From IMG/VR virus record IMGVR_UViG_3300030099_004448, positions 62,001-126,000 of that record: a DNA stretch of 64,000 bases, one strand, 5' to 3'. The translations under genes were made by a program, and so were the position numbers. Shown piece after piece: positions 17,707-35,632 of this stretch. The DNA comes from a virus. The notes beneath the pieces are model-generated. The model saw only the letters and a list, made by a program, of their open reading frames with translations. It did not search any database and was not told the origin of the DNA. How positions within the stretch are numbered: the stretch's first letter is position 1; each line of letters begins with the position of its first letter.

Positions 17707-18195
17707 ATGAACACTGCAATGACTATGCTAGGTGGCATGTCCGAAGATACCATTACCATTACTGGTGGTGTTTTCTCCGAAGACGCTATGATTGGTGCTG
17801 CACAACCTGTTGATATGAATGGTATCTTTGGTGGTGCAGGAGCTGATTACATTACTTTTGATCAAGAAAGTGATTATTCCATTGATTTGACTATGAACAA
17901 CGACCCCAATCGATACAAATACAGTGAGGATCGAATCCTCGAAGAGTTGAAAGAATATATTTCTGGCACATATAACGCTCACTATTCTGCTGGTGACGAC
18001 AAGATTCAAACTCTGGATCTGATTGAAGCTTGTGGTGATGGTGAATCTTTCTGTCGTAGTAACATCCTCAAGTATGCATCTCGATACGATAAGAAAGGCA
18101 CTGCACGTCGAGATATCATGAAGATTCTCCACTATGCAGTCCTCCTGATGCATTTCAACGACAAGAACTCTATTACCGAAACGTACAATCAATGA
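17707..18195 (+). CDS. DUF3310-type protein
   Basis: A 162-residue protein. The C-terminal half (about 95-155) reads KIQTLDLIEACGDGESFCRSN, ILKYASRYDKKGTARRD and IMKILHYAVLLM, the pattern of DUF3310, a helical phage family related by fold to nucleotide-binding all-alpha proteins. The N-terminal 75 residues are Gly-, Met- and Asp-rich and unrecognised. It overlaps gp45 by 4 bases, which suggests a link with DNA replication, but the function is unknown. Confidence 0.7.
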   Translation: MNTAMTMLGGMSEDTITITGGVFSEDAMIGAAQPVDMNGIFGGAGADYITFDQESDYSIDLTMNNDPNRYKYSEDRILEELKEYISGTYNAHYSAGDDKIQTLDLIEACGDGESFCRSNILKYASRYDKKGTARRDIMKILHYAVLLMHFNDKNSITETYNQ

Positions 18196-18872
18196 CAACT
18201 AATATGCAACTCTCCGACAAAACCCTCAACCTTCTGAAGAACTTTGCGGGTATTAACCAATCTATCCTTTTCAAACAAGGCAAGACTATTCGCACTATCA
18301 GTGTGATGAAAAATATTCTTGCAGAAGTCAACGTTGACGAAGAGTTTGAACGCGACTTCGGTATCTACAATCTGAATGAGTTCTTGAACGCAATGTCTTT
18401 GTATCAAGATCCTCAGTTGGATTTCAAGAATGAAAGTTATGTTTCTATCCGAGAGGGTAAGACTCGTTCTAAGTATTTCTTTGCAGATCCTGCAGTTATC
18501 GTTACTCCTCCAGACAAGTCCATCACTCTGCCTTCCGAGGATGTGAGTTTTGAACTGAATACTCAACAACTGGACAAACTGTTGAAGGCTGCTGCAGTCT
18601 ATGGTGTTCCCGATCTTTCTGTAATCGGTGAGAACGGTGTGGTTAAGATCGTTGTTCGTGATAAGAAGAACGACACTTCTAATGACTATGCTGTCGTGGT
18701 TGGTGAAACTTCTGCATCTTTCTGTCTCAACTTCAAGGTTGAGAATATCAAGATCCTTCCTGGTTCCTACAACGTGACTATCTCCAGCAAACTACTTTCT
18801 AGATTTGTTTCTGAAGATAAGAATCTTGTGTATTACATTGCACTGGAACCAGATTCTACCTATGATGAATGA
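18192..18872 (+). CDS. gp45: Sliding clamp gp45
   Basis: The 226-residue trimeric DNA clamp (T4: 228), processivity factor of gp43 and co-activator of late transcription together with gp55. The N-terminus MQLSDKTLNLLKNFAGINQ closely follows T4 MKLSKDTTALLKNFATIN, and the C-terminal YIALEPDSTYDE follows T4 YVVALEADSTHDF. ATG 18192 is coupled to the previous stop; ATG 18204 would align exactly with the T4 start. Confidence 0.97.
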   Translation: MTTNMQLSDKTLNLLKNFAGINQSILFKQGKTIRTISVMKNILAEVNVDEEFERDFGIYNLNEFLNAMSLYQDPQLDFKNESYVSIREGKTRSKYFFADPAVIVTPPDKSITLPSEDVSFELNTQQLDKLLKAAAVYGVPDLSVIGENGVVKIVVRDKKNDTSNDYAVVVGETSASFCLNFKVENIKILPGSYNVTISSKLLSRFVSEDKNLVYYIALEPDSTYDE

Positions 18873-19614: not shown

Positions 19615-20565
19615 ATGAACAAAACTGACTTTCTTTGGGTTGAGAAATATCGCCCTCAGACTATTGAAGATTGTATCCTCCCCGACTCTGCCAAACAAAT
19701 GTTTCAGGAGTTTCTAAATAAGAAAGAGATCCCTAACCTTCTTCTTTCTGGTCCTCCTGGTATTGGTAAGACCACGGTTGCAAAGGCTCTTTGTCATGAA
19801 CTTGGAGTAGACTATTATGTCATCAACGGATCCGATGAGGGACGATTCCTGGACACGGTACGGAATCAGGCCAAGAATTTCGCTTCGACCGTCTCACTAT
19901 CTGCATCTGACGCAAAGCACAAAGTCATCATTATTGACGAGGCTGACAACACAACCCACGATGTACAACTCCTCCTACGGGCAAATATTGAGGCGTTTTA
20001 TAACAACTGTCGATTCATTTTCACCTGCAACTACAAAAACAAGATTATCGAACCCCTCCATAGTCGATGCGCCTGTGTTGACTTTTCGATCACTGGTAAA
20101 CAAAAACCAGCCATCGCTGCAAAGTTCTTCGGACGCATCCAACAAATCCTGGATACAGAAGGTGTTGAATATGATAACAAGGTCCTGGTAGAACTTATTA
20201 ACAAACACTTCCCAGACTGGCGTCGGGTGTTGAATGAGTGTCAAAGATACTCCGCAAGTGGGAAGATTGATTCTGCAATTTTGACGGAGTTTTCTGATGT
20301 CAACATTAACACGCTTGTCAAAAATCTTAAGGAAAAAAGTTTCCCCGAAGTACGTAAATGGTGTGTCAATAACCTGGACAACGATCCTACTGTACTTCTG
20401 CGTCGTATTTACGATGCTTGTTATGATTCCTTGGTTCCGAATAGTATTCCTGCTGCTGTGCTTATTATCGCTAAGTATCAGTATCAAGTGGCATTTGTGG
20501 CGGATCAGGAAATAAACCTTCTCGCAGCATTGACTGAAATTATGGTGGAGTGTGATTTCAAATGA
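19615..20565 (+). CDS. gp44: Clamp loader large subunit gp44
   Basis: A 316-residue AAA+ ATPase (T4: 319). With gp62 it opens gp45 and loads it at primer ends. Seen: WVEKYRPQTIEDCILP at the N-terminus, Walker A GPPGIGKT (46-53), Walker B IIIDEADN near 107, and the arginine-finger motif LHSRC near 146, all typical of RFC-type loaders. The partner gp62 is about 3 kb downstream rather than adjacent. Confidence 0.97.
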   Translation: MNKTDFLWVEKYRPQTIEDCILPDSAKQMFQEFLNKKEIPNLLLSGPPGIGKTTVAKALCHELGVDYYVINGSDEGRFLDTVRNQAKNFASTVSLSASDAKHKVIIIDEADNTTHDVQLLLRANIEAFYNNCRFIFTCNYKNKIIEPLHSRCACVDFSITGKQKPAIAAKFFGRIQQILDTEGVEYDNKVLVELINKHFPDWRRVLNECQRYSASGKIDSAILTEFSDVNINTLVKNLKEKSFPEVRKWCVNNLDNDPTVLLRRIYDACYDSLVPNSIPAAVLIIAKYQYQVAFVADQEINLLAALTEIMVECDFK

Positions 20566-21137
20566 TACCAATTATTCACTGGACCCGATTTAGTGATTAC
20601 CACAAAATTGCAGACAAGATTGGTATGCGTGGTGCAGTATATGGATTTGTTTTTAATGACAAGATGCCATCTTCATGTGATTGCCCTTCAGATTTTGAGG
20701 AATGTGTCTACATTGGGGAGTCTGGTGGACCACGGGGATTCTATTATGACAAACAAAATGGACATAAAGGAAAGTTGAGAACTCACCTACATAAGAGGAT
20801 GACTGCACATCACAGACCACTGACTACTGGAGAGTGTTCTGAAAAGAAATATGAACTCTTCAAAGAGAAGTATGGTTTTGGTGATGATGTTCTCAATGGA
20901 ACTTTGACTGGCATGCCACTTTGGGTTGGATTTATTACTCCACCGAAAGAAGATCCAGATCATTGTCTAAAATCCTGGTTGATCTTTAGGGAACACTATG
21001 AGATCTATCAGTATCAACGGAAGTTTGGTCGTTCTCCCCTGATGAATATGCAGGTTGATGGAAAGGGCAAAGATCCCAATTCATATTCAAGTGAAATTAT
21101 GCAAAATTATGGTGCATTAGATGCATTTATGTCATGA
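20562..21137 (+). CDS. Putative GIY-YIG nuclease-like protein
   Basis: A 191-residue protein with the order of motifs expected for a GIY-YIG domain: G24-A-V-Y27 (GIY-like), Y50-I51-G52-E-S (YIG), R58 or R73, H75 or H77, and a later helix FREHYEIYQYQRKFGRSPLMN around 142-162 in which E144 could bind the metal ion, followed by the typical P-L-x-N. Such domains occur in homing endonucleases and in host-genome-degrading or repair nucleases. It starts by ATGA overlap with gp44. Not recognised beyond the motif reading, so the call is provisional. Confidence 0.5.
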   Translation: MIPIIHWTRFSDYHKIADKIGMRGAVYGFVFNDKMPSSCDCPSDFEECVYIGESGGPRGFYYDKQNGHKGKLRTHLHKRMTAHHRPLTTGECSEKKYELFKEKYGFGDDVLNGTLTGMPLWVGFITPPKEDPDHCLKSWLIFREHYEIYQYQRKFGRSPLMNMQVDGKGKDPNSYSSEIMQNYGALDAFMS

Positions 21138-21304
21138 AGAAAAAGAAAAGGACACAGACTAAAGAGAACTATTATTATTGGTTCTGGATTGTCGCGATGG
21201 TTGCATTCATTGTCCCTCAAGTCTTTACTGCTTGGGCATATGTAAACATTGTAGATATTATTAAGAATGATTCCGTTCGAGTTGAGGTAAGAAAAGATGA
21301 TTGA
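21134..21304 (+). CDS. Small single-pass membrane protein, 56 residues
   Basis: A short gene coupled to the previous one by ATGA overlap and to the next by a shared GATGA. A basic N-terminus (KKKKR) precedes a hydrophobic stretch around 14-38 (YYYWFWIVAMVAFIVPQVF); the positive-inside rule suggests the N-terminus stays in the cytoplasm. Function unknown. Confidence 0.6.
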   Translation: MKKKKRTQTKENYYYWFWIVAMVAFIVPQVFTAWAYVNIVDIIKNDSVRVEVRKDD

Positions 21305-21590
21305 TGTAAAACTGATTCGTATTGTTACTGGTGAAGAAATTATTGCAGAACTAATTTCGCAGAATGAAAATACCATTACTGTGAAGAATGGTCTTGTAGT
21401 TCTTCCTAGTGCTCAGAATGTAGGATTCGCTCCTTGGGCAACTGTCATCAGTAAAGAGAACCCCGAGATTACAATGGACATGCGACATGTAGTTTACGTT
21501 GCAGAAGTTGAAGAAAATGTCGGAAAGAAGTATAATGAAATGTTTGGGAGTAAGTTGATTACTCCTGAGAGTAAGAAATTGATTGTTTGA
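21297..21590 (+). CDS. Small Sm-like fold protein (paralog 2 of 4)
   Basis: A 97-residue protein. VKLIRIVTGEEIIAELISQ at 4-22, TITVKNGLVVLP and a last strand MRHVVYVAEV give the same strand order as the protein at 4769. A C-terminal helix (VGKKYNEMFGSKL) follows. If this is an Sm-type barrel, ring assembly and RNA binding are possible, but no RNA-binding signature is certain. It sits in the clamp-loader region. Confidence 0.55.
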   Translation: MIDVKLIRIVTGEEIIAELISQNENTITVKNGLVVLPSAQNVGFAPWATVISKENPEITMDMRHVVYVAEVEENVGKKYNEMFGSKLITPESKKLIV

Positions 21591-21591
21591 T

Positions 21592-22713
21592 ATGCAATTA
21601 GAACTTGATGATGCAATTTACGCAGCTGACAAATTCATCGATTACTTCTCCAATATGGGACGTATCGATGAATATCTGCGTAATGTGAAACTTGACCGAA
21701 TGAGTCAAATGCAAACATCCATTCTGGGTATGGGTCCAGAGGATGATATGTTTGACGCATTTGATATGCACCCCGAAGACATGGATATCCGAGTGTATCC
21801 TGCAGGTGTCAAGGGTGGTTTTAGTAACGAATACTTTAGCGAGAGATTGCAAGTCACTACATCTCACGCTATCGAAGACTCCATTCCTGGTAAGTCCTTG
21901 AAGTGGATTGTCAAAGAGATGAACACAAATAAGATCTTAGGATTCTGTAGGTTTGGTTCTCCGACAATTAATAGTAAACCTCGCAATGAATGGTTGGGTA
22001 GTGTTCCTGAACTGACACGATTCAATCGTCATGCGATCATGGGATTTATTATTGTCCCGACTCAACCATTCGGTTTTAATTACCTGGGTGGTAAACTCCT
22101 GGCGCTCCTGTGTTGTTCTCACACCGCCCGTGAGACGTTAAATAGTAAATATGACTCAGACATCTGTCTGTTTGAAACAACGTCGCTCTACGGGTCTACA
22201 AAGTCCTCTTCGCAGTACGATGGTCTCAAACCATACATGAGGTATAAGGGACTCACACAGAGTGATTTCACACCTCTTCTGCACGATGAGATTTTTCAGG
22301 AGTTAAACAAATGGTTCATAGCACGCAACGGGGACAAGAGTCTGGTGAAGGAGGACGCATCCAGTCGCAAACTCAAAACCCAACAGAAAATGATCTCAGT
22401 GATCAAAAAAAGCTTACCTTCTCACAAGGTTGCGGAGTTCCAAACTGCGATTGTAAGTGCAAAAAATCTGACTGAACAAAAACGTTTCTACATGTCTGAC
22501 TATGGATTCAGCAACGCTCGTGAAGTTATTATGGGTGAACAAGAAACTCTTACTCCTGGCCAAAATTATGAAAAGTTCCATACCGAGAACTTGATTAAAT
22601 GGTGGAAGAAGAAAGCATCCAACCGATATGAGAAACTGAAATCTGAAGGTAGACTTCGCACAAAGGTTGAAACCTGGAATTCAAATCCTGATGAGATAGA
22701 TATTATTAGATAA
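21592..22713 (+). CDS. Putative DUF4338-like protein
   Basis: A 373-residue protein. Residues 100-230 carry a pattern like DUF4338: LKWIVKEM, ILGFCRFGSP, NEWLGSV, then LTRFNRHAIMGFIIVPTQ, a helix LLALLCCSHTARE, ICLFETTSLYGS and YMRYKGLT. DUF4338 is found in Druantia defence and in transposon-linked proteins; here the match is distant and read by eye. The C-terminal 100 residues are helical and basic. Start 21592 is used; an ATG at 21583 lies further into the previous gene. Location between gp44 and gp62. Confidence 0.45.
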   Translation: MQLELDDAIYAADKFIDYFSNMGRIDEYLRNVKLDRMSQMQTSILGMGPEDDMFDAFDMHPEDMDIRVYPAGVKGGFSNEYFSERLQVTTSHAIEDSIPGKSLKWIVKEMNTNKILGFCRFGSPTINSKPRNEWLGSVPELTRFNRHAIMGFIIVPTQPFGFNYLGGKLLALLCCSHTARETLNSKYDSDICLFETTSLYGSTKSSSQYDGLKPYMRYKGLTQSDFTPLLHDEIFQELNKWFIARNGDKSLVKEDASSRKLKTQQKMISVIKKSLPSHKVAEFQTAIVSAKNLTEQKRFYMSDYGFSNAREVIMGEQETLTPGQNYEKFHTENLIKWWKKKASNRYEKLKSEGRLRTKVETWNSNPDEIDIIR

Positions 22714-22724
22714 TTAAAAAATTT

Positions 22725-23387
22725 ATGACTCTAATATGCAATCTACCCACAGAGAAAGTTTGGGTTCGTAAAGAGTATCTAACAGATCACCAAAGTGGTC
22801 ATGGTGAGTTTGTGGAGGGACTCTGGGTTACTGCAAAGAGTATTCCTGGTCGTGCATTTTATTTTGAAACATATCTCCCAGAATATGGAGCTATGTACGA
22901 TAAACTACCGATCAGTGCTTTTGTTTCTCGCCCAGTAACACCAGACCCTGATTTAGATCTACCTAATCTTCAGTTTTGGAACTGCATGGATTACGATGTA
23001 ACTGCTATTGAAAAAAGTATTGTTGCATCGATGGAGTGGGAAGTAAGAACAAGACACTTTGGAAATATCAAAGGCACATATATTTGTACTCTTGATAACT
23101 ACCACGGGAATATCGACACTATTGATGCATCTACTAGTGAACTCCCCGACGAACATAAGTCATTCAATTTGATTGAACTTAAAAATGGTCAGTATGCATT
23201 GTATCCAAATAACAGGTGTCGCATTTATGATATCTCTATGACTCCCCAAGAACCTAAGGTGCCAGACTTCAAAGTGTCTACCCAGTTCTATCAGGTAGAG
23301 AATGGTGTTGAGTGGGGAAGACTTGGTGATTGTGATGATTACTTCTGGACTACACCAGACGAAAGGGCGGAGAAATATGAAATGTGA
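22725..23387 (+). CDS. Conserved cyanophage protein, 220 residues, unknown function
   Basis: No known domain recognised. The sequence is beta-rich with many aromatic residues (LWVTAKSIPGRAFYFETYLPEYG near 28-50, LPISAFVSRPV near 58) and a C-terminal YWTTPDERAEKYEM-like acidic end. It overlaps the next short gene by 11 bases. Expression with the replication cluster is expected from the compact arrangement. Confidence 0.6.
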   Translation: MTLICNLPTEKVWVRKEYLTDHQSGHGEFVEGLWVTAKSIPGRAFYFETYLPEYGAMYDKLPISAFVSRPVTPDPDLDLPNLQFWNCMDYDVTAIEKSIVASMEWEVRTRHFGNIKGTYICTLDNYHGNIDTIDASTSELPDEHKSFNLIELKNGQYALYPNNRCRIYDISMTPQEPKVPDFKVSTQFYQVENGVEWGRLGDCDDYFWTTPDERAEKYEM

Positions 23388-23523
23388 AGTAACGATGTAT
23401 CGTGGTGGAACAATATTTAAAGAATCTTACTTTGTCCGAGATTATCAAGAGGCAAGAAAAGTCGCTTTGGCTAGAAACCCAGGTGTAACTATTGTTGGTG
23501 TAAACGCAGTATTTGAATCATGA
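23377..23523 (+). CDS. Small protein, 48 residues
   Basis: A short beta-alpha-beta-like protein (MKCEVTMYRGGTIFKESYFV, then DYQEARKVALARNP and VTIVGVNAVF). It overlaps the preceding gene by 11 bases and gp62 by 4 bases, so translational coupling on both sides supports it. Function unknown. Confidence 0.6.
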   Translation: MKCEVTMYRGGTIFKESYFVRDYQEARKVALARNPGVTIVGVNAVFES

Positions 23524-23909
23524 GCTACGAACTGAAAGACTATTTAAATTCGATTAATTTCACAAAAGAATATCTTATGAGTGAGGAGGATCCCACCTGG
23601 GAAAAGAAATATCCTCCCTTTATTATCAATAAGTGTCTGTCTGGATTTATCGACACTGTTATGTTTGCAAACGAGATGAATGTCAATCACCAACTACCAT
23701 CTCGTCTCCAATATGATTTCTTTATAAATACCGTTAGGAAACGGAAAAGATTTTCTCCGTGGCTAAAAAAGGATAAGATTAATGACCTTGATGCAGTAAA
23801 ATCATACTATGGTTATAGTAATGAAAAGGCTCAACAAGCTCTGAAGATTCTTACCAAAGAACAAATCTCATTTATTAAAGATAAGCTTGATGTTGGAGGT
23901 AAAAGATGA
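23520..23909 (+). CDS. gp62: Clamp loader small subunit gp62
   Basis: A 129-residue protein, shorter than T4 gp62 (187), as usual in cyanophages. The segments IINKCLSGFIDTVMFANEMN (about 36-55), RLQYDFFINTVRKRKRFSPW and VKSYYGYSNEKAQQALKILT match the cyanophage gp62 pattern. It stabilises gp44 and contacts the clamp. It is coupled to regA by ATGA overlap, the gp44-gp62-regA order of T4 being kept despite the insertions. Confidence 0.9.
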   Translation: MSYELKDYLNSINFTKEYLMSEEDPTWEKKYPPFIINKCLSGFIDTVMFANEMNVNHQLPSRLQYDFFINTVRKRKRFSPWLKKDKINDLDAVKSYYGYSNEKAQQALKILTKEQISFIKDKLDVGGKR

Positions 23910-25592: not shown

Positions 25593-27140
25593 ATGCCTTG
25601 GTTGAGTTTATCAATATTGTTTCCAATTACTGCCGCACTTGGCATTCCTCTTCTACCAGATAAGGGAGATGGAAAAGTTGTTCGGTGGTATGGATTATCA
25701 ATCACATTAATCACGTTTTTAATTACTGTTGCTGGGTATATCAATGGGTATGATCCCTCAGTAAGCGATCTACAAATGTCCGAGAGGATTAGTTGGTTGC
25801 CTGAACTGGGTCTAACCTGGTCTGTGGGTGCAGACGGTCTATCGATGCCTCTCATTCTTCTGACAAGTTTTATCACCAGTCTTGCAGCACTCGCTGCATG
25901 GCCTCTTAGATTCAAACCAAAATTATTTTTCTTCCTGCTATTACTTATGGATGGTGGGCAGATTATGGTTTTTGCAGTACAGGATCTCATTCTATTTTTC
26001 CTATCCTGGGAACTGGAACTATTACCTGTTTATCTAATGCTTGCGATCTGGGGTGGTAAAAGACGCCAGTACGCTGCAACTAAATTCATCATTTACACTG
26101 CAGGTAGTTCTCTATTCATTCTTATTGCAGGACTTGCAATGGGATTCTGGGCATCAAACGGTTCTCCGAACTTTGAATACACTTATTTGATGAATCAGGG
26201 ATTCCCAAAAAATTTCCAACTTTGGTGTTATGCAGGATTCTTGATTGCCTTTGGTGTCAAACTCCCAATCGTGCCCTTGCACACTTGGTTGCCTGATGCA
26301 CACGGTGAAGCAACTGCACCAGTTCATATGTTGCTTGCAGGTATTCTTTTGAAGATGGGTGGATATGCACTTCTGCGATTCAACTGTCAACTCTTGCCTG
26401 ATGCACATTCCGTATTTGCTCCAGTCCTTATTGTTCTTGGAGTTGTTAATATCATCTATGCGGCATTGACATCATTTGCACAGAGAAATCTCAAACGCAA
26501 GATCGCATATAGTTCGATCAGTCACATGGGATTTGTACTCATTGGTATCGGAAGTTATAGTGTTCTCGGAACCAGTGGTGCGATGCTCCAAATGGTTAGT
26601 CATGGTCTGATTGGTGCATCTCTATTCTTCCTAGTGGGTGCAACATATGACCGAACTCATACTCTCGAACTCGCTGAGATGGGTGGAGTTGGTAAGAGTA
26701 TGAAGATTATGTTTGCGATGTGGGTTGTGTGCTCTATGGCATCCTTGGCACTGCCAGGTATGAGTGGATTTGCGAGTGAACTTATGGTCTTTGCTGGATT
26801 TGCAACTGACACGATGTATTCTATTACTTTCCGTGCATTCATTTGTGTCCTTGCTGCAATCGGTGTGATCTTGACTCCGATTTATCTTCTTTCCATGTTG
26901 CGGGAGATCTTCTTTGGTAAAGAGAACTTGGAACTTGTCAATCATACAAACCTTGTCGATGCAGAACCCAGAGAGATCTACATCATTAGTTGTCTTTTGG
27001 TTCCCATCATTGGAATTGGATTGTTCCCCAGGATTATGACGGATACTTACAAAACCTCCATTGATGCCTTGGTTAACAGGGATAAGATTGCGTTAGTCCG
27101 ACCGCAACTGGTCAGAACATTCACTCCACCAACTGTATAA
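25593..27140 (+). CDS. ndhD: NADH dehydrogenase-like (NDH-1) subunit NdhD, D1 type
   Basis: A complete 515-residue antiporter-like membrane subunit of NDH-1, the complex that takes electrons from ferredoxin, reduces plastoquinone and pumps protons in cyclic electron flow and respiration. Key parts are intact: [18 protein letters not shown] with E140 (the conserved glutamate of TM5), K223 in [18 protein letters not shown] with H230, [17 protein letters not shown], and [20 protein letters not shown]. About 14 hydrophobic segments are visible. The sequence follows cyanobacterial NdhD1 (respiration/cyclic flow), not the CO2-uptake D3/D4 types. It has its own promoter and terminator, a monocistronic metabolic gene. 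No other ndh gene lies in the window. Confidence 0.95.
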
Positions 27141-27571: not shown

Positions 27572-27815
27572 TTTAATTCAGATAATTGTTCTGGTTGATG
27601 GAACAATTCTAATTTCAAAAATTGGTCAAGTTATTTCAGAACTTGGTGAACCAGATTGCCGTTTGATCCAACCACATGTTGTGGAAGGTCTTCGGCCTTG
27701 GTTAGAAAACTTGACTGACCAGACCGATGACATTATGATTTCATCGGATAAGATCTTGACTTTGGTTGACCCCAAAGATGACCTACTTAATGATTATTTG
27801 ACCCTCACTAAATGA
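27564..27815 (+). CDS. Small Sm-like fold protein (paralog 4 of 4)
   Basis: An 83-residue version of the same family: IIVLVDGTILISKIGQVISE at 7-26, CRLIQPHVVEG, then KILTLVDPKDDLLNDYLTL. The end matches the end of paralog 3 (TPKEDILNSYQERM), which is direct evidence for a tandem duplication. It is coupled by ATGA overlap to gp43, so it is co-translated with DNA polymerase. Confidence 0.6.
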   Translation: MDDLIQIIVLVDGTILISKIGQVISELGEPDCRLIQPHVVEGLRPWLENLTDQTDDIMISSDKILTLVDPKDDLLNDYLTLTK

Positions 27816-30310
27816 AGTTCTACACGAGCGTTGTTCTCCTTGGTAATGATATCCTTGTCCGTGGATATGAAAACGGCAAACACTTCACGAAACGCGAACC
27901 CTTCCAACCCAGGTTCTTTGTTCCGTCAAAACGAGAGAGTAAATATAAAACCCTTGATGGTCAAGATGTAGAACCCATTCGCCCTGGTACTATCCGAGAG
28001 TGTCGTGAATTCTTGGACAAGTATAATGATGTGAATGGATTTAAGGTCTATGGGAATGACCGATTTGTGTATCAATACATTGCTCAGAATTATCCTGAGG
28101 AAGAAATCAAATTTGATATCTCAAAGATCAAAGTTATTACAATCGATATTGAGGTTGCAGCGGAGAGTGGATTCCCCGATGTATTCAATTGCGCTGAAGA
28201 ACTTCTACTGATTACAGTTCAAGATTATAATACCAAACAGATTACTACCTTTGGATCTCGTCCTGCAAAGGTTGATCAGAAGAATGTCAGATTTGTGTAC
28301 TGTGATGGTGAGTATGAACTCATTACCAAGTTCATGGACTGGTGGCAGAATAACACGCCAGAGGTCGTTACAGGGTGGAATAACGAACTGTATGACATGC
28401 CTTACCTGGTTGGTAGGATCACCCGTCTGATGGGAGAGAAGTACGCCAAACGTCTCTCTCCGTGGAATGTGGTGCGTGTCAAAGAGGTCACGATCATGGG
28501 TCGGAAACAACTCAGCACAGAGATCGCGGGTGTGTCTATTCTGGATTACCTAGACCTCTATAAGAAGTCTCCTGCAACTCCAAACCAAGAGAGTTATCGA
28601 TTGGATCATATCGCCTTCATGGAGTTGGGTCAGAATAAACTGGATCACTCCGAATATGATACCTTCCGAGAGTTCTACACAAATGATTGGCAGAAGTTCG
28701 TTGAATACAACATCGTTGACGTGGAACTGGTTGACCGTCTTGAGGACAAACTGCGTCTGATTGACTTGTGTTTCACCCGTGCGTTTGACGCTAAGGTGAA
28801 CTTCAATGACATTGCATACCAGGTACGAACCTGGGACGCTATCATCTACAACTATCTTCTTAAGAAGAATATTGTGATTCCTCAGAAGGAACGCAATAGT
28901 AAGAGTGAAAAGTATGCGGGTGCGTTCGTAAAAGAACCCATCCCAGGTGCATACGAGTGGGTAGTCAACTTTGACCTTAACTCACTGTACCCTCACCTGA
29001 TTATGCAGTACAATATCTCACCAGAGACTTTGATTGAACAACGTCACCCCAGTGTGACTGTCGATAAAGTTCTGAAGAAAGAACTTACCTTTGAGATGTA
29101 TAAAGACAGTGCGGTTTGTGCTAATGGTGCAATGTATCGCAAGGATGTCCGTGGGTTCCTACCAGAACTTATGGAGAAGATGTATAGTGAACGTGTTATC
29201 TTCAAGAAGAAGATGATCGAGGCGAAGAAAGCCTATGAGAAGACTCCTACCAAAGCATTGGAGAAAGAGATTTCACGTTGTGACAATATTCAGATGGCTA
29301 AAAAGATTGCACTGAACTCTGCTTATGGTGCGATTGGTAATGAGTATTTCCGATACTACAAACTTGCAAATGCAGAGGCGATCACTTTATCGGGACAGGT
29401 ATCGATTCAGTGGATCGAAGAGAAGATGAATAGTTACCTGAACAAAGTTTTGAAATCTGATGGAGTAGATTATGTCATTGCTATTGATACCGATTCCATT
29501 TATCTTAATATGGGTCCTTTTGTTGACGCTGTATTCAAGGGTAGAGAGGCTTCTACTGAAGAGATTGTTAATTTCCTTGATAAGGTCAGTCACATGGAAC
29601 TTGAAAAGTATATTGAGAGTTCTTACGAAGAATTGGCCAACTACCTCAACGCCTACGAAAACAAAATGGTGATGAAACGCGAGAACATCGCGGAACGTGG
29701 TATTTGGACTGGTAAGAAACGTTATATCCTTCGTGTGTGGGACAGTGAAGGTGTTCGTTATGAGAAACCCAAACTGAAGATGATGGGTATTGAGGCAATC
29801 AAAACCTCAACCCCTGCACCTTGTCGTCAATACATTAAAGATGCACTTGAGATCATCATGACAAAAGAAGAGGATGATGTCATTGACTTCATCGAGAGTG
29901 CTCGCAAAGAGTTCAGGAATCTTCGTCCTGATGAAATCGCATTTCCCCGTAGTGTATCTGAAATTAAGAAATGGGAATCTCGCACTGACATGTATAATAA
30001 AGGTTGTCCTATTCATGTTCGTGGTGCAATCCTCTACAATCACTATACTAAGAAAGCTGGACTTGATAAGAAGTATGCAGCAATTCAGAGTGGTGAAAAG
30101 ATCAAGTTCTGTTATTTGAAAACACCTAATACTATTCAAGAGAATGTTTTCTCCTTCATTCAAGAGTTTCCGAAAGAACTAGATCTTGAAAAGTATATTG
30201 ATTACGATGCACAGTTCAACAAATCTTTTGTAGAACCGATGAAGATTATTCTCAATGCGATTGGTTGGTCTGTAGAAAAGAAAGTAAGTTTGGAATCATT
30301 CTTCGCATGA
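27812..30310 (+). CDS. gp43: DNA polymerase gp43
   Basis: An 832-residue family B replicative polymerase (T4: 898). The 3'-5' exonuclease domain is intact: TIDIEVAAESGFPD near 110 (Exo I) and VVTGWNNELYDMPYL (Exo II). Polymerase motifs follow: DLNSLYPHLIMQYNIS near 392, KIALNSAYGAIGN near 500 and AIDTDSIYL near 558. The C-terminus ends VSLESFFA, the clamp-binding type of tail. It overlaps the preceding small gene and the following oxygenase gene. Confidence 0.98.
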   Translation: MKFYTSVVLLGNDILVRGYENGKHFTKREPFQPRFFVPSKRESKYKTLDGQDVEPIRPGTIRECREFLDKYNDVNGFKVYGNDRFVYQYIAQNYPEEEIKFDISKIKVITIDIEVAAESGFPDVFNCAEELLLITVQDYNTKQITTFGSRPAKVDQKNVRFVYCDGEYELITKFMDWWQNNTPEVVTGWNNELYDMPYLVGRITRLMGEKYAKRLSPWNVVRVKEVTIMGRKQLSTEIAGVSILDYLDLYKKSPATPNQESYRLDHIAFMELGQNKLDHSEYDTFREFYTNDWQKFVEYNIVDVELVDRLEDKLRLIDLCFTRAFDAKVNFNDIAYQVRTWDAIIYNYLLKKNIVIPQKERNSKSEKYAGAFVKEPIPGAYEWVVNFDLNSLYPHLIMQYNISPETLIEQRHPSVTVDKVLKKELTFEMYKDSAVCANGAMYRKDVRGFLPELMEKMYSERVIFKKKMIEAKKAYEKTPTKALEKEISRCDNIQMAKKIALNSAYGAIGNEYFRYYKLANAEAITLSGQVSIQWIEEKMNSYLNKVLKSDGVDYVIAIDTDSIYLNMGPFVDAVFKGREASTEEIVNFLDKVSHMELEKYIESSYEELANYLNAYENKMVMKRENIAERGIWTGKKRYILRVWDSEGVRYEKPKLKMMGIEAIKTSTPAPCRQYIKDALEIIMTKEEDDVIDFIESARKEFRNLRPDEIAFPRSVSEIKKWESRTDMYNKGCPIHVRGAILYNHYTKKAGLDKKYAAIQSGEKIKFCYLKTPNTIQENVFSFIQEFPKELDLEKYIDYDAQFNKSFVEPMKIILNAIGWSVEKKVSLESFFA

Positions 30311-33715: not shown

Positions 33716-34247
33716 TTTTATCAAACTGTATGAAGACGCCTTGGGTGAAAAAGAGTGTGACATTCTGATTCAGTTTTTTGAACAGAGTCATGCGAAAGAA
33801 ATAGTAAAGAATGGAGGAACTCCAAACTTTACTCAACTGAATATCAACAAGAGTAATCCACAACTAATTGCACAGTTGTCACGGGTTACTCAAACCATCT
33901 TGTCTCTTTACAAGAGAGAACTATCAGAGTACACTAGATGGTATCCTCCGAGGCTTTTCTTGGAGGAGTTTCGCGTAAAGAAATATCATTCCAGAACTAA
34001 AGACAGGTTCGATCCACACGTCGATGTGCAGGACCATGCTTCTGCAAGAAGATATCTTGCATTTCTCTTCTATTTAAATGAAGATTTTAGTGGTGGGGAA
34101 ACTGAGTTCCCGCATCACAGTAGAAAAATTATACCGAAAACTGGCTCGGTGATTGTCTTTCCCCCAACTTGGCAATATCCCCATGCAGGATTGAAAGTCA
34201 AGAAAGGAGTTAAGTATATTATGTCAACCTATTGTCACTACTATTGA
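33681..34247 (+). CDS. Prolyl 4-hydroxylase-like 2OG-Fe(II) oxygenase
   Basis: A 188-residue oxygenase with a full catalytic set: H113-x-D115 (DPHVDVQD), strand AFLFYLNEDFSGGETEFP, distal H168 (QYPHAG) and K178 ten residues later for 2-oxoglutarate. This is the P4Ha form. It starts inside the 3' end of uvsX and is coupled to gp41 by overlap; a hydroxylase next to uvsX is frequent in cyanophages. Target unknown. Confidence 0.85.
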   Translation: MKLQNKSFVTGDFIKLYEDALGEKECDILIQFFEQSHAKEIVKNGGTPNFTQLNINKSNPQLIAQLSRVTQTILSLYKRELSEYTRWYPPRLFLEEFRVKKYHSRTKDRFDPHVDVQDHASARRYLAFLFYLNEDFSGGETEFPHHSRKIIPKTGSVIVFPPTWQYPHAGLKVKKGVKYIMSTYCHYY

Positions 34248-35632
34248 TGGACGAACGTATCGAAACTACAATCCTGAGGAGTCTCGCTCATAATGAGGAG
34301 TACTCTAGAAAGGTATTACCTTTTATCAGGTCTGAATATTTTACAGATTATACTGAAAAAGTAGTATTTGAGGAGATCTGTAAATTTATCTTTAAGTACA
34401 ATAAACTTCCCACGCAAGAAGTACTCCGTGTTGAAGTTGATGGTCGTTCGGATCTCAATGAAAACTCCTACAAAGATGTCACTAACTATGTGAATAATCT
34501 GGAGAAGACTGTTCTGGACTTCACTTGGTTGAGTGATATTACTGAAAAGTGGTGTAGGGATAAAGCAATCTATCTTGCTCTGATGGAGTCTATCTCCATC
34601 GTTGATGGTAATGACGAAAAGAAAACTAAGGATGCAATTCCTTCAATTCTATCGGATGCACTTGCAGTTAGTTTTGATACTAACGTAGGTCATGATTATC
34701 TTCAGGATTATCAAGAACGATATGATTTCTATCATCAGACTGAAGAGAAGATTCCTTTCGATCTGGAGTTCTTTAATAAGATTACGAAAGGTGGTCTTCC
34801 TAACAAGACATTGAACATTGCACTTGCTGGCACTGGTGTTGGTAAGTCTTTGTTCATGTGTCACATGGCTGCATCTTGTCTCTTACAAGGTAAGAATGTT
34901 CTCTACATTACTTGTGAGATGGCAGAAGAAAAGATCGCAGAACGCATTGACGCTAATCTTTTGAATGTCAATATCCAAGAGATTCAAAACATGCCTAAGT
35001 CAATGTTTGAAAACAAAGTAACCAACTTGAGTAAAAAAACTCAAGGTACTCTTATAATTAAAGAGTACCCCACAGCTACTGCACATAGTGGACACTTTAA
35101 GTCACTTCTTAACGAGCTTGCACTTAAGAAGTCATTTAGACCTGATATTATTTTCATTGATTACCTTAATATATGTGCTTCCTCACGATATCGCGGTAAT
35201 CTTTCTGTCAATTCATATTCGTATATTAAGGCTATTGCAGAAGAGCTTCGAGGGTTGGCTGTTGAAACAAACGTCCCTATCGTATCTGCCACGCAGACCA
35301 CTCGCTCTGGTTATGGCAGCTCTGATGTTGAGCTTACTGATACTAGTGAATCCTTTGGTCTCCCTGCTACTGCTGATCTTATGTTTGCCCTTATTAGCAC
35401 TGAGGAACTTGAATCACTTGGGCAGATAATGGTTAAACAGTTGAAGAATCGATACAATGATCCTACGATGAATAAACGATTCGTAGTTGGTATTGATCGT
35501 GCTAAGATGCGTCTGTATGATTGTGAGCAATCTGCACAGGCTGATATTCTGGACAGTGGTCAGGATGAAGAGTACACTCCTCAAGAAAAGAGTTCTGGTC
35601 CTAGGAAATCATTTGAAGGATTCAAATTCTGA
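34247..35632 (+). CDS. gp41: Replicative helicase gp41 (DnaB-type)
   Basis: A 461-residue hexameric helicase (T4: 475) that unwinds the fork and works with primase gp61. Seen: helical N-terminal domain, IPFDLEFFNKITKGGLPNK then Walker A AGTGVGKS near 200-207, CEMAEEKIAERI, Walker B IIFIDYLNIC near 306 and the QLKNRYNDPT motif H4 near the end. The TGATG overlap with the upstream gene sets the start at 34247. Confidence 0.97.
   Translation: MDERIETTILRSLAHNEEYSRKVLPFIRSEYFTDYTEKVVFEEICKFIFKYNKLPTQEVLRVEVDGRSDLNENSYKDVTNYVNNLEKTVLDFTWLSDITEKWCRDKAIYLALMESISIVDGNDEKKTKDAIPSILSDALAVSFDTNVGHDYLQDYQERYDFYHQTEEKIPFDLEFFNKITKGGLPNKTLNIALAGTGVGKSLFMCHMAASCLLQGKNVLYITCEMAEEKIAERIDANLLNVNIQEIQNMPKSMFENKVTNLSKKTQGTLIIKEYPTATAHSGHFKSLLNELALKKSFRPDIIFIDYLNICASSRYRGNLSVNSYSYIKAIAEELRGLAVETNVPIVSATQTTRSGYGSSDVELTDTSESFGLPATADLMFALISTEELESLGQIMVKQLKNRYNDPTMNKRFVVGIDRAKMRLYDCEQSAQADILDSGQDEEYTPQEKSSGPRKSFEGFKF

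Follow-up and report, generated by a model that had tools for sequence, protein, structure and literature searches.

The locus and the encoded protein

The window, the whole 64,000-nucleotide stretch analysed here, belongs to a 238,937-base record of a marine cyanobacterial virus and carries a replication operon in which gp45 (sliding clamp, 18192..18872), gp44 (clamp-loader large subunit, 19615..20565; phrog_168, Gp44_lid), gp62 (clamp-loader small subunit, 23520..23909) and regA were confirmed with Pfam and PHROGs. An earlier note on this DNA had placed a nuclease gene directly behind gp44, and an ORF of 191 amino acids is found there (20562..21137, plus strand; ATG at 20562, stop at 21137), in one copy only in the entire record. 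Its start overlaps the gp44 stop in an ATGA (20562..20565), its stop overlaps the start of the next ORF in a second ATGA (21134..21137), and these form the left and right edges of a 572-base unit. The next ORF is small (21134..21304; phrog_2000); beyond it lies a DruA-like gene (21583..22713; PF14236 at 37 bits against a cut-off of 27, phrog_19197; likely ATG at 21592), a candidate for DNA modification. The distance of about 3 kb between gp44 and gp62, which had been taken as a pointer to the nuclease, is real (2954 bases), but the gene accounts for only 572 of these bases and separation as such is normal: in the nearest relatives, complete slots have a median gap of 1453 bases, and only 3 of 59 have the two genes adjacent.

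Two further genes of the window deserve mention. A complete NdhD-like gene (25593-27140; NDH-1 subunit, 515 aa) stands behind hsp20; phage S-SCSM2R carries a gene 89% identical to it and annotated NdhD, and ndhD goes unmentioned in the S-SCSM1 paper (PMC9602691). The protein at 22725-23387 belongs to phrog_3704, for which the PHROGs label, ferredoxin, looks doubtful; Pfam gives only a weak, unrelated trefoil match.

The ORF had been read as a GIY-YIG nuclease from the order of its motifs, and all of the residues concerned are present (G24-A-V-Y27, Y50-I-G52, R79, H83, E144 and P159-L-M-N162). Invariant among 31 aligned sequences, which span 30-87% identity to the query, are W7, G24, Y27, P36, P42, Y50, G52, S54, D63, K78, R79, H83, E144 and N162; the gene is sporadic among relatives and its motif unchanged, rather than being conserved in all of them with other residues at the motif positions. 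Sequence profiles were silent: the protein had no credible match by sequence in Pfam, PHROGs, NCBIfam, PADLOC or the PDB, searches that remote families can escape, a profile built from its relatives had no credible library match, and a Pfam scan of 18 relatives one by one returned stray matches only. Two overlapping scans of IMG/VR (37 and 48 loci) yielded 52 loci with relatives, and the phage records held one, in S-SCSM2R (84% identity, annotated hypothetical). No relative was found in bacterial and archaeal genomes (24 pattern matches, none confirmed), and a match in Pseudomonas phage WP1 (E = 2) was set aside as chance. Within the databases scanned, the predicted family is found only in viruses.

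The invariant residues, together with the fold, bore out the GIY-YIG reading. The AlphaFold model (pLDDT 88.4, pTM 0.81) runs through two strands, an inserted hairpin, a helix with R79 and H83, further helices, a strand and a helix with E144; residues 1-165 of 191 make up the GIY-YIG fold and the rest is a low-confidence tail, and neither the Pfam scan nor the model revealed a NUMOD or a separate DNA-binding domain. In VIA-align, where a Z below 8 alone may reflect a common arrangement, rows 1-9 were all GIY-YIG structures (2lwf, UvrC domains and R.Eco29kI; Z 8.0 to 6.7), whereas the next row was unrelated (Z 3.8); R.Hpy188I stood at Z 3.0. The entry 2lwf is listed as a plant Grx N-terminal domain, which we take to be that of AtGrxS16, a GIY-YIG domain. 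Foldseek gave weak results against the PDB, with no match under E 0.001 and R.Eco29kI in fifth place (probability 0.51), and among viral models (BFVD) several top matches were named GIY-YIG proteins, with probabilities up to 1.00. We consider the assignment firm because the catalytic residues are invariant and because Z drops from 6.7 to 3.8 after the last GIY-YIG row: the protein is predicted to be a nuclease of a new GIY-YIG family, an addition that present profile libraries miss, and judged in silico it is a compact, catalytically intact endonuclease.

The reading frame is full-length at 61 of 63 loci with the gene (the remaining 2 are cut by contig ends), and dN/dS ranges from 0.045 to 0.23 over 8 locus pairs, both sets possibly including the same contig under two identifiers; these values indicate clear purifying selection. 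It is therefore highly improbable that the fold is kept for a non-catalytic role, the whole catalytic set being invariant in the 31 sequences down to 30% identity.

Presence, exchange and the gp44 3′ end

Three loci (L055, L056 and L057) are 95.4-96.0% identical to the window on both flanks and are without exactly the 572 bases between the two ATGA, so that gp44 runs through the ATGA into the phrog_2000 ORF, which adjoins it directly. The gene is thus free-standing and present or absent between close relatives; in a scan with the window's gp44, it occupied 2 of 59 complete gp44-gp62 slots. Loci L047 and L009 differ by 2% in gp44 and 1% in DruA, but by 50% in the nuclease, and between the window (L001) and L006 the nuclease has a dS of 0.39, compared with 0.90 in gp44 and 0.77 in DruA. 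At L049, the nuclease comes after a complete DruA-like gene, and behind it lies another DruA 3′ end, 22 codons long and diverged, which we interpret as an insertion scar. The exchange, the low dS and the putative scar all point to lateral movement into sites free of the gene. Among 21 distinct loci (identical loci removed), the distance matrices nonetheless correlate (Mantel r 0.59 for nuclease and gp44, 0.71 for nuclease and DruA, 0.76 for gp44 and DruA), which implies that descent of the nuclease has in part, indeed in large part, been vertical. The earlier suggestion of a mobile or formerly mobile gene is upheld by the precise empty site, the allele exchange, the scar and other nucleases at the gp44 3′ end, and sequence comparison shows the nuclease gene to be mobile among marine T4-like phages.

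The last 24 bases of gp44 (20542..20565, plus strand) recur elsewhere at the 3′ ends of inserts. After removal of identical loci, a second copy of this tail closes or trails an inserted ORF at 5 of 301 distinct loci (L006, L132, L183, L295 and L357), and the same test gave 5/114 for gp43, 1/116 for DruA, 1/231 for gp45, 1/121 for PDG and none for gp62, regA, Dam, hsp20 and C5 (0/275, 0/266, 0/92, 0/148 and 0/74, respectively), counts in which the same contig may appear under two identifiers; with shuffled tails, the ten genes together produced a single hit in 5,214 trials. The weakest copies are those with 5 mismatches (L357, most gp43 cases and L486), and the gp43 copies may reflect a shared peptide instead of insertion. 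Inserts behind gp44 include HNH_3 ORFs (L295, L357 and L362 above the Pfam cut-off, L009 just below), an endonuclease VII ORF (L299), ORFs of phrog_5018, a family label without function (L006, L183, L332 and L458), and at L132 an ORF for which no family was named. The phrog_5018 inserts are probably PD-(D/E)XK genes; the L006 member scored 24.7 bits with PDDEXK_5, under the cut-off of 26.1. Elsewhere in the slot, NUMOD3 with HNH_3 (L168), HNH_3 (L188) and endonuclease VII (L399) were found.

A motif scan of 520 loci that was blind to position named gp44 as the nearest upstream core gene for 6 of 9 HNH and 2 of 2 endonuclease VII motifs, against a baseline in which gp44 supplies 371 of the 2,083 gene ends that leave space downstream, all of these counts being raw as to slot length. 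Judged in silico, the gp44 3′ end is a hotspot that attracts nuclease genes, and in marine T4-like phages the 3′ ends of gp44 and gp43 are insertion places for several unrelated nuclease families. Upstream of the insertion points, no common DNA motif was found beyond the coding sequence of the upstream gene itself. In the open-licence literature, including the portions covered of PMC2988022, PMC2993671 and PMC3037559, a GIY-YIG gene behind gp44 was not found, and the landing place at gp44 is absent from the literature so covered; other cyanophage endonucleases, including copies at gp17-gp18, are treated in the portion of PMC3037559 that was covered.

Modification genes in the slots and the C-terminal tail

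Complete gp44-gp62 slots (59) held DruA in 26 cases, Dam in 25, neither in 8 and never both, and slots downstream of gp43 held DruA or C5 in 72 of 79; nearly all of these modification genes have no copy of the nuclease beside them. All 72 of 72 complete gp44-gp62 slots of a second clade were free of DruA, Dam and C5. The same slots thus hold interchangeable candidate DNA-modification genes, with DruA-like, Dam and C5 genes replacing one another both between gp44 and gp62 and behind gp43. From this interchange, and because none of the 59 complete slots combines DruA with Dam, it seems likely that DNA modification is the activity of the DruA family, which is known from Druantia. The DruA-like protein model (pLDDT 56) was too poor for a structure search. 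The S-SCSM2R record names the gene methylcarbamoylase mom, and a DruA-like protein occurs in Synechococcus phages, six in all, for example S-PRM1 (PMC12774648, in the part covered). At L027 (679-2535), three genes separate the nuclease from gp62; the first of them, at least, is a 2OG-Fe(II) oxygenase, and genes like this group fill the gp44-gp62 slot in many relatives of L046.

Beside the nuclease itself stand DruA (the window, L022 and L029), Dam (L023, L032, L033 and L051) or a C5 methyltransferase (L028), and of 29 records 17 had a DruA match, 6 a Dam match and 2 a C5 match, one record having two of these. Such neighbours suggest a restriction-modification pairing, an idea weakened by the slot censuses, in which the modification gene mostly lacks a nuclease beside it. 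In its wider form, the protein would be a restriction-modification-like or host-degrading nuclease that attacks DNA lacking the modification which the phage itself makes (by a DruA-like, Dam or C5 enzyme), in the way that R.Eco29kI and T4 endonuclease II cut unmodified DNA. The frequent adjacency to modification genes of several kinds and the compact fold, similar to that of a restriction enzyme, agree with this, as does the lack of denA in marine cyanophages, T4 endonuclease II being an enzyme that cuts unmodified DNA (PMC2993671, in the part covered). However, the modification gene is there anyway (51/59 and 72/79 slots), nearly always without the nuclease; since the slot holds it regardless, the evidence from neighbourhood is confounded, and adjacency alone is no proof of a functional pair. 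Moreover, the records L044 (60.8 kb), L053, L027 and L050, some of them fragments, had no match to DruA, Dam or C5, and at L047 the nuclease was swapped while DruA was kept. No palindrome of 4 or 6 bases was depleted in carriers alone when the window and 50 kb of the other carrier were compared with four phages free of the nuclease, 50 kb from each; depletion of GTGCAC and TTCGAA was common to all stretches, carriers and nuclease-free alike. We consider a restriction-like role unlikely, although it keeps some weight, and read the slots as places of modification genes into which the nuclease gene comes.

The nuclease ends in GALDAFMS (21111..21134, plus strand), a tail like that of the gp43 DNA polymerase of the window (27812..30310, plus strand), which ends in VSLESFFA. 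Clamp-binding C-termini have been described for gp43, gp55 and gp33 (PMC2988020) and again for gp43 (PMC3012046), as far as the parts covered of these papers go. With a regular expression that was written after the tails had been seen, only gp43 and the nuclease fitted among the 60 ORFs of at least 100 aa in the window (0.26 expected), and the same held for 45 ORFs in a stretch of S-SCSM2R. Each of four stretches without the nuclease gave a single fit, gp43 (out of 53, 45, 47 and 45 ORFs); 17 of 32 distinct tails of the nuclease family fitted. The test was repeated with a profile made only from 33 distinct gp43 tail strings, at least 2 of them apparently misread and kept in. Under this profile, 14 of the 32 family tails exceeded the 99th percentile of other ORF tails and 18 missed it, with the family median at about the top 1%, and the same percentile was reached by 4/78 Dam, 0/52 C5 and 0/47 DruA tails. 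The window tail scored -0.7 (11th of 394 ORFs), under the 99th-percentile cut of 1.2, and the clamp-tail evidence is therefore modest for the window copy.

The tail of the nuclease resembles the clamp-binding tail of gp43, and on this similarity it may bind the clamp, with gp45 as its proposed docking partner; this is the most novel and the least secure part of our reading. Under the gp43 tail profile, the ORF ranked directly after gp43 itself is a gp41-like helicase of the window (34232-35632; also in L523 and L527), which ends in SFEGFKF. At L230, L234, L458 and L466, accessory ORFs near gp43 finish in a near copy of the gp43 3′ tail, and genes landing behind gp43 may gain a clamp-binding-like C-terminus. 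A clamp-like tail, a place among replication genes and UvrC domains among the best structural matches would also suit a clamp-recruited, structure-specific nuclease of replication or repair, acting in the manner of UvrC or SLX1 and encoded by a dispensable accessory gene. Its sporadic occurrence (2/59 slots), its swapping and its lateral movement would be unusual for repair, and we rate this explanation as improbable, below the restriction-like one.

Proposed mechanism and known systems

Our preferred reading, to which we assign a probability of about 0.58, is a free-standing mobile nuclease of a homing or competition type, possibly tethered to the clamp. The gene inserts immediately downstream of conserved replication genes, gp44 or gp43 in most cases, and passes between phages through recombination in the genes on either side. 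The nuclease would cut the DNA of a co-infecting relative without the gene, and repair from the carrier would copy the gene over. The ATG overlapping the gp44 stop suggests coupled, low expression, and the tail may bring the enzyme to replicating DNA via the gp45 clamp, without a DNA-binding domain of its own. Several observations weigh against homing in particular. The protein lacks both a NUMOD and a separate DNA-binding domain, insertion behind gp44, gp43, DruA and Dam would require the enzyme to recognise more than one target, the sequences revealed no cleavage site, and the nuclease matrix still tracks those of gp44 and DruA. Homing genes often decay, and no degraded copy was seen among the 63 loci.

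A more specific version of the mobile-nuclease reading holds that the mimic of the gp43 tail directs cutting of unprotected or gene-free DNA at the replication forks of competitors and so drives the spread of the gene into the replication operon. We treat this as a tentative idea, well short of even odds. If the tail does bind the clamp, the replisome would be guiding a mobile nuclease; the idea is directly testable because a cultured carrier exists, S-SCSM2R on Synechococcus WH7803.

Among known systems, the UvrC N-terminal domain has the GIY-YIG core in common with the phage protein (Z 7.0-7.5); UvrC is a cellular repair protein with several domains, whereas the phage protein has only 191 aa. 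T4 endonuclease II (DenA), a small GIY-YIG phage nuclease, was not among the matches shown by our sequence and structure searches, an absence that proves nothing. The likeness to the T4 Seg enzymes and I-TevI consists in GIY-YIG catalysis (predicted here), a free-standing position between conserved genes and absence from some close relatives. I-TevI (92 residues in its catalytic domain) and the free-standing enzymes of T4 join catalysis to a distinct DNA-binding domain, a Seg-type trait that the phage nuclease lacks, and the T4 homing insertion sites given do not include gene 44 (PMC2988022, in the part covered). As there is no separate DNA-binding domain, we do not claim membership in the Seg/I-Tev family.

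The type II restriction endonuclease R.Eco29kI shares the same fold over 106 residues of the model alignment (Z 6.8, rmsd 3.1, 19% identity) and the Y/Y/R/H(+4)/E/N set, with an R-H spacing of 4 in both (R104/H108). This set was modelled and largely tested by mutation, and Y49, R104, H108, E142 and N154 matter in R.Eco29kI (PMC1952068, in the part covered). Both enzymes are compact, with core insertions instead of an added DNA-binding domain. The E-N spacing is 12 in R.Eco29kI by the numbering of PMC1952068 (part covered) and 18 in the phage nuclease, which also differs in having no detected sequence similarity to that enzyme, no dedicated methyltransferase, a place in a replication operon and a clamp-like tail.
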